Made by a program: the position numbers and the translations under genes
Shown: one piece after another, positions 25,683 through 26,962 of the stretch
How positions within the stretch are numbered: position 1 is the stretch's first letter
Layout of the letters: each line of letters starts with the position of its first letter
NCBI GenBank assembly: GCA_004377365.1
Contig: SOHZ01000469.1
Span: forward strand, 1-34,592
Direction of reading: 5' to 3'
Length of the DNA stretch: 34,592 nt
From: Anaerolineales bacterium
GTDB lineage: Bacteria; Chloroflexota; Anaerolineae; E26-bin7
Notes under the pieces: generated by a model
Databases searched by the model: none
What the model saw: the letters and a program-made list of their open reading frames with translations, nothing else
What the model was told of the DNA's origin: nothing

Positions 25683-25916
25683 TTACGAGGATGAAGCAGC
25701 CGCAGCCAATGCCGGTGCGATTTCAAACACGATCCGCCCTTCTACCTGGCCCAGCACCTGGCCAGCATCCAGGATTTCCAGGCCGGCCAGTTTCCCATCT
25801 GGCCCATAGTTAGCGATCAGTTCATCGCTCAGTGGACGGGCTTCTGCAGTCCCATCCGCCAGGGGATGGAATTCAATATACAATGCATCTACTTCGGCAT
25901 CATAATAAATCTTCAT
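25683..25916 (-). CDS. DUF2283-type protein
   Basis: MKIYYDAEVDALYIEFHPLADGTAEARPLSDELIANYGPDGKLAGLEILDAGQVL. Confidence 0.8.
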   Translation of the reverse strand: MKIYYDAEVDALYIEFHPLADGTAEARPLSDELIANYGPDGKLAGLEILDAGQVLGQVEGRIVFEIAPALAAAASSS

Positions 25917-25967: not shown

Positions 25968-26084
25968 TCATTCCAGTGCGGCCTCAATCTGTTCCACCAC
26001 CGTCCGCTGCGGCGAACCATCCCCCGGCTCACGCTCCCTAGCTATGCGCTCCGCCTCCAGCAAGGGTCTCACAATTTCCTCCAT
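25968..26084 (-). CDS. Putative 38-aa micro-ORF / conserved tail module, copy A
   Basis: MEEIVRPLLEAERIAREREPGDGSPQRTVVEQIEAALE*; in frame with and 33 nt after the TAG of the DUF5615 ORF; homologous to copy B at 26789-26962. Confidence 0.45.
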   Translation of the reverse strand: MEEIVRPLLEAERIAREREPGDGSPQRTVVEQIEAALE

Positions 26085-26117
26085 AGTAGGTGCAGGCAAG
26101 AAAGGAAGAAATGTCTT

Positions 26118-26501
26118 CTAAAGGTTCCTCGCGCGCCTGATTGGCAACGCGCGAATGCGAATGCGACTTTGCTCAAAGACAACAATGCTTCCCTGTTCTA
26201 GAGCCTCCTGAAGGGCAGTCAAGTTCGCTTGCAACAGAGCCAATTGATTCTCGGGACGGCGCTCCGTGCCTCGCCGGAATAAGATAACTGATGGCTTATT
26301 GTCCTGTCGCAGGGCAAGCAGCGTGCCAAAATCGGTATCCGCAGAGATGAGAATACGATCCTCCGAGGCGGCCCGGACAAAGATTTCTTCATCTGCTGCG
26401 GCCTGCATGCCATAGTCACGGACATGGACTGCATCATGGCCCAGCCGCCGCAGCCCCTCGGCCACGAAGGGCGACAAGGCGTTATCCACCAGAAATTTCA
26501 T
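26118..26501 (-). CDS. DUF5615 PIN-like (Mut7-C-like) putative toxin
   Basis: [65 protein letters not shown]. Confidence 0.85.
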
Positions 26502-26728
26502 CCTGCCGTCACCAGAGGCAGTGCTCGTTCCCGCACGGCTTCCGCTGCAAAGCGCAGGGCTTCGCGAATGTCCTCGCTTTCTAGATCGGGAAAGGCTCGC
26601 AAGATCTCTGCTTCGCTCATACCCTCGGCTACCATACCCACAACGGTAGCTACCGGAATACGTAGACCGCGAATGCAGGGTGCTCCCCCCATTTGGTGTG
26701 GGTTAATGGTAATCCGTGTAAAGTTCAT
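26498..26728 (-). CDS. DUF433 putative antitoxin
   Basis: [63 protein letters not shown]; start at 26728 with SD GGAGGGACC; ATGA overlap with the DUF5615 ORF. Confidence 0.85.
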
Positions 26729-26788
26729 GGTCCCTCCTCCCGGCCTTGTATATGCAGCCGTGATCATCTTCTCGAAGCAACTCACTCC

Positions 26789-26962
26789 TCACCACTTATT
26801 TGCCGACGCCAGCGCCGCCTCAATCTGCTCCACCACCGTCTTCTGCGGAGAACCATCCCCCGGTTCACGTTCACGGGCGATGCGCTCCGCCTCCAGCAGC
26901 GGGATGCCTTCCGGGATGGAGGAGATGGTGTCCCCCAATCCTCGCCCATCGGCGGGGAAGGG
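26789..26962 (-). other. In-frame open extension downstream of STAND stop, copy B of the conserved tail module
   Basis: Reads PFPADGRGLGDTISSIPEGIPLLEAERIAREREPGDGSPQKTVVEQIEAALASANKW*, in the same frame as the STAND ORF after its TAA (26963-26965). Confidence 0.5.

Follow-up and report, generated by a model that had tools for sequence, protein, structure and literature searches.

A conserved tail of STAND-like NTPase-TPR proteins and its two probable relics in an Anaerolineales genome

A 31-codon module that occurs twice in the window, by which we mean the whole stretch of 34,592 nucleotides of Anaerolineales DNA that was analysed, is the C-terminal tail of a family of long NTPase-TPR proteins, and its two copies (A and B) are most probably the 3′ relics of two separate tail-bearing STAND genes, a reading to which we give a probability of roughly 80%. 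The copies themselves are most likely without function at present, and they are probably not new mini-genes.

Two copies of the module in the window

The features that bear on the argument are the following, all of them on the minus strand.

25683–25916, minus strand: small DUF2283 protein, the first gene past copy A (Pfam PF10049)
25968–26072, minus strand: copy A, an orphan 31-codon tail (core 25974–26066), recognised because intact NTPase-TPR proteins end in a homologous stretch
26072 (GTG, 34 codons) or 26084 (ATG, 38 codons), minus strand: starts of possible reading frames through copy A, with GGAGGA at 26077–26082
26118–26501, minus strand: DUF5615 PIN-like toxin gene (Pfam PF18480, E=1e-26)
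26498–26728, minus strand: DUF433 antitoxin-like gene with ATG at 26728 and GGAGGAGGGA upstream (Pfam PF04255, E=2e-24); the program-made open reading frame extends to 26785
26789–26938, minus strand: copy B, a probable tail relic (core 26810–26902), continuing the STAND frame past its stop codon
26932–26974, minus strand: imperfect, REP-like palindrome, CCCCCACCCTAACCCTTCCCC...GGATTGGGGG, recognised by sequence shape and by similar ends in the loci L101 and L108
26963–29569, minus strand: 868-residue STAND-type protein with DUF4062, NB-ARC and TPR domains (Pfam; PADLOC PDC-S60)

The two cores lie where the initial annotation had placed them, and its count by hand is reproduced: 14 nucleotide differences across 93 nucleotides hit 12 of the 31 codons, 11 of them synonymously and one with an exchange of R and K. 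Under neutrality, a simulation (14 substitutions, kappa 3) yields 8.9 amino-acid differences on average; one or fewer, as observed here, came up in none of 20,000 runs. The NG86 comparison of the two copies over 90 nucleotides (S=10.5, N=2.5) gives a dS of 0.67 and a dN of 0.04; from the pairwise comparison of tails by this method the L089 row was left out, its alignment being out of register. The bias that had been read as purifying selection on the peptide is real, though it does not by itself point to a stand-alone peptide and would most simply have been inherited from the parent genes.

Both copies sit in open frames that start directly past the stop codon of the gene upstream and are in frame with it, this gene being DUF5615 for copy A (43 codons from TTG, 38 from ATG) and the STAND gene for copy B (49 codons). 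They are the only tail copies in the source genome (5.87 Mb, 88.8% complete), and Pfam agrees with the earlier statement that they flank a DUF433/DUF5615 pair. When tails are compared at the nucleotide level, copy B is 13 differences away from copy A and 13 from the intact tail of L057, and copy A is 20 from the latter. Copy B would accordingly lie near the node and copy A on a longer branch, with about ten of the changes between them falling on copy A and nearly all of these private changes synonymous. Since B is equidistant from A and from an intact tail, the two need not stem from a local duplication, and the simplest account would be that they come from two parents which diverged under selection within working proteins and were lost late. 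The nearly exclusively synonymous changes of copy A are unlike those of a long-dead relic, so that either a recent loss of its parent or some residual function is needed. A DGR variable/template repeat was also considered and rejected, as the differences are mixed in type and fall mostly on third positions, without the restriction to adenine positions of one copy.

The parent family and its tail

The module is homologous to the C-terminal ~45 residues of seven intact NTPase-TPR proteins of 980–1045 residues (L055, L056, L057, L058, L061, L063 and L066), and open frames ending in the tail among the relatives measure 1016, 1058, 1025, 1044, 1023 and 991 residues. For copy B the homology covers 26804–26938 of the window and residues 962–1006 of the intact L058 protein. 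The suggestion that the module might be a conserved or lost C-terminal tail of STAND-type proteins is supported; as to whether its relatives stand alone or close longer proteins, they are either C-termini of long proteins or orphans, many of which are decaying.

By their sequence the parents appear to be STAND-like, that is P-loop NTPases with a C-terminal repeat sensor: they carry the P-loop GVGGVGKSS and TPR_12 (PF13424) above the cut-off. They share with known STAND NTPases that have TPR sensors (AAA_16/NB-ARC/NACHT-type plus TPR) the order of P-loop NTPase and then TPR, but differ from them in that AAA_16 remains below its cut-off (19.4 vs 32.6 bits) and in that the C-terminal module and the tail lie outside Pfam. 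This module occupies residues about 838–1004 behind the TPR sensor, ends in ...PRPDTISPIPEGIPLLEAERIAREREPGDGSPQKSVVEQIEAAL and has no Pfam family; Pfam recognised no N-terminal effector domain in the parents, and the tail has no match in Pfam or NCBIfam. Overall the parents are about 38–64% identical in pairs, and the tail is their most conserved part, with a mean pairwise identity of 82% over the last 44 residues vs 26% in the TPR middle. An AlphaFold2 model of an intact parent (10 sequences, pLDDT 63) has the tail as two short helices, mostly at a confidence below 50, and is too weak to inform on its role. Such strong conservation suggests a contact, interaction or regulatory segment in the intact proteins.

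The middle of the parents (residues about 521–834) is only about 20–38% identical in all pairs, whereas its flanks in L057 and L058 are 72–91% identical, with 53–82% identical codons among conserved residues. In nearly all pairs the middle comes to about 25%, and the closest pairs attain 80–90% in both flanks. A tree of the middle places L056 with L063 (support 0.997), in conflict with the N-terminal tree, where it groups with L055, L057 and L058 (support 0.795). The low identity of the middle, the conserved flanks and the conflicting trees together fit a candidate case of a sensor replaced wholesale between conserved ends.

Homologues are found in Chloroflexota. The tail is present, with one to three copies per genome, in 15 of the 396 Anaerolineae genomes searched; in two families 6 of 14 and 3 of 6 genomes have it, and outside the class two genomes of the phylum in a draw of 400 do. 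Matches with E above 0.01 in the search for relatives (L007–L032) were treated as chance, and the phage, plasmid and viral collections gave no relative of the tail. The contigs that carry it belong to MAGs labelled Chloroflexi, Anaerolineae, Thermoflexales and similar, with L063 as the one exception: there the tail-bearing STAND gene is intact and sits on a contig (PQAS01000058.1) of a MAG titled Methanoperedenaceae archaeon, so that either the gene has been transferred to archaea or the contig was wrongly binned. The family looks uncharacterised and is patchily distributed.

Orphan tails elsewhere and the history of the window locus

A full-length parent mapped onto all the tail loci reveals decay in all its stages. 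Some loci retain much of the gene, as in L054, where an in-frame internal deletion joins residues 1–148 to 834–1005, or L062, where the lesion lies in the C-terminal half between residues 730 and 910. In L089 the C-terminal piece is frameshifted and an N-terminal piece lies detached farther along; L068 has an N-terminal piece and two tails. Only the end of the parent is kept in L059, L065, L069 and L064, the last of these being truncated and the first three still open; L070 holds a relic with stops, and in L060 the second tail is interrupted by a palindrome and a RAYT-type transposase gene. The longest orphan tails retain about 65 codons and the shortest 8; orphans vary in start, length and integrity, many being truncated, interrupted or degenerate, and no recurring start codon or ribosome-binding site was found among them. 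Tandem tails around differing, unrelated genes occur in L055, L060 and L068 as they do in the window. At the gatB locus of another genus the orphans L065, L068 and L069 give dN/dS values of 0.22–0.39, which with 90 nucleotides rest on little data; they have probably been orphans for longer, with selection apparently relaxed, and values below 1 could possibly also arise through independent losses.

In L055 (4228–4300), L060 (941–1012 and 2280–2310) and L057 (6153–6200) the tail is adjoined or interrupted by the palindrome TAGGACAAATTTATAAATTTGTCCTA and RAYT-type transposase genes; the first two of these loci also have, behind the palindrome, part of the tail end a second time. Three genomes also have a 371-residue protein (MSEYQYYEWQTIDRPLTASEQ...), which has no Pfam match, placed between two tails or directly before one (L055 4299–5414, L059 1–1115 and L060 1012–2127).

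Genes behind the other tails include UPF0175 with PIN, ParE-type and DUF4258 genes, that of the 371-residue protein and housekeeping genes. Toxin-antitoxin-like genes directly follow 8–9 of about 25 tails, with only some of these calls confirmed by Pfam, and other tails are followed by RAYT-type transposases or housekeeping genes; a DUF433/DUF5615 pair directly follows a tail in the window only. Some pairs recur: an antitoxin with a ParE-type gene in L061 (6172–6640) and L068 (7728–8230), and a UPF0175-like with a PIN-like gene in L068 and in G001, a genome of the same genus as the source; L068 (8649–9460) and L099 (754–1510) likewise have a toxin-antitoxin-like pair in common behind their tails. 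That genomes of different families share such pairs suggests that tail and pair may have travelled, or been inherited, as a unit.

The window locus is bounded by the genes for a corrinoid protein and for ThiS. In G001 this interval is short, and the corrinoid gene runs straight into GTGGAGCAGACTGAGGCGGCATTG (VEQTEAAL), a tail relic, VEQTEAALREN, with eight tail codons left, which is followed by a putative toxin-antitoxin pair, the UPF0175-like and the PIN-like gene, and then by ThiS. As this relic is at the orthologous site, the tail was once present at the locus in the genus, and its front has been deleted in G001. No full-length parent was found in the source genome, where the only matches were A, B and weak TPR matches; at 89% completeness, a missing contig could still hold a parent gene.

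The 868-residue STAND protein next to copy B belongs to a family (DUF4062/NB-ARC/TPR) different from the tail parents. Its relatives, 47–62% identical over the aligned part, stop at the same position without a tail, which argues that copy B is not a lost tail of this gene. The REP-like stretch forms the PPP-stop end of the STAND frame and adjoins copy B; because a near-exact search finds it at only three places in this genome, and it is thus rare, its status as a repeat is judged from the palindromic shape and from the similar ends of L101 and L108. These two relatives, from other families, share the PPP-stop; their ends, like that of the 868-residue STAND gene, fall within a REP-like stretch rich in C, which looks as though the palindrome had moved along with the gene.

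Taken as relics, the two copies would go back to two different members of the tail-bearing STAND family that formerly stood in tandem at this locus, each followed by a small, putatively toxin-antitoxin, gene. The interval between the corrinoid-protein and ThiS genes would then be a turnover hot spot, in which the bodies of both parents were deleted or replaced, one of them by the unrelated 868-residue STAND gene, and the synonymous bias would be a record of purifying selection from the time when the tails belonged to working proteins. The order of these events and the recency of the deletions are what we infer from the present arrangement.

Alternative readings and relation to known systems

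That copy A, and possibly copy B too, is translated on its own into a peptide mimicking the STAND tail, for example a decoy or inhibitor titrating the partner of the tail or a small partner of the neighbouring toxin-antitoxin genes, seems to us improbable. The strong synonymous bias, the Shine-Dalgarno-like GGAGGA-AATT-GTG ahead of copy A with its 34–38 codons, the orphans that are still open and the dN/dS below 1 at the gatB locus speak for it, but the start and ribosome-binding site do not recur, orphan lengths are very uneven with several orphans broken, a full copy is absent from G001 and neighbours vary by locus. For the same reasons (different neighbours, no recurrent start or ribosome-binding site, many broken orphans) the micro-protein tied to DUF433/DUF5615 that the initial annotation had put forward is not supported. 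It is very improbable that copy B is the true C-terminus of the 868-residue protein, severed by a REP-like insertion with an in-frame TAA or reached by read-through: the frame is the same, no stop lies between the TAA and the tail and the palindrome sits exactly at the junction, but relatives end there without a tail, two of them with the same PPP-stop, and the tail belongs to another NTPase-TPR family. A non-coding repeat (MITE or REP element) with an open frame by chance would be short, duplicated and beside REP-like palindromes, as here; conservation at the protein level, one to three copies per genome and the fact that intact copies are mostly C-termini of long proteins leave it a negligible probability.

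A different reading, which we regard as unlikely, takes the tail DNA as a recombination seam, with units of tail and downstream toxin-antitoxin genes exchanged or stacked through homologous recombination at the conserved 3′ end of STAND genes. The alternation of tails and toxin-antitoxin genes in the window and L068, the pairs shared by L061 and L068 and by L068 and G001, and the middles of the parents, which look swapped between conserved ends, would all fit it. However, genomes have only one to three tails, 8–9 of about 25 tails precede toxin-antitoxin-like genes, and plain loss of STAND bodies from STAND-toxin-antitoxin operons would yield the same picture. In an equally unlikely extension, inner sensor segments and trailing toxin-antitoxin units would both be swapped by homologous recombination between tail copies, the orphans being retained as seams and not as inert stumps. 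Orphan cassettes behind polymorphic-toxin genes (PMC3482391) offer a likeness, in that there too truncated ends of homologous genes pile up behind an intact one, with different small genes after each of them, but here the repeated piece is the conserved STAND 3′ end and not a toxin tip, and decay into relics accounts for the tails without programmed exchange.

The EADs of NTP-dependent conflict systems (Kaur et al. 2020, PMC7159879) are likewise short conserved modules that end a conflict-type protein. We rejected this assignment: every tail found is either a STAND C-terminus or an orphan, and with no copy found on a separate effector, the homotypic pairing by which EADs are defined is not seen. 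The DUF433/DUF5615 (VapBC-like) pair between the copies is an ordinary one; other types of gene also occupy positions between or behind tails.

Relics whose parents evolved separately can look just like a conserved micro-gene, and a strong synonymous bias between short repeats is therefore by itself no proof of a micro-protein. The tail serves as a sensitive marker for hot spots of gene turnover, and the apparent replacement of the sensor in its parents provides a testable case of the diversification of bacterial immune-type receptors.
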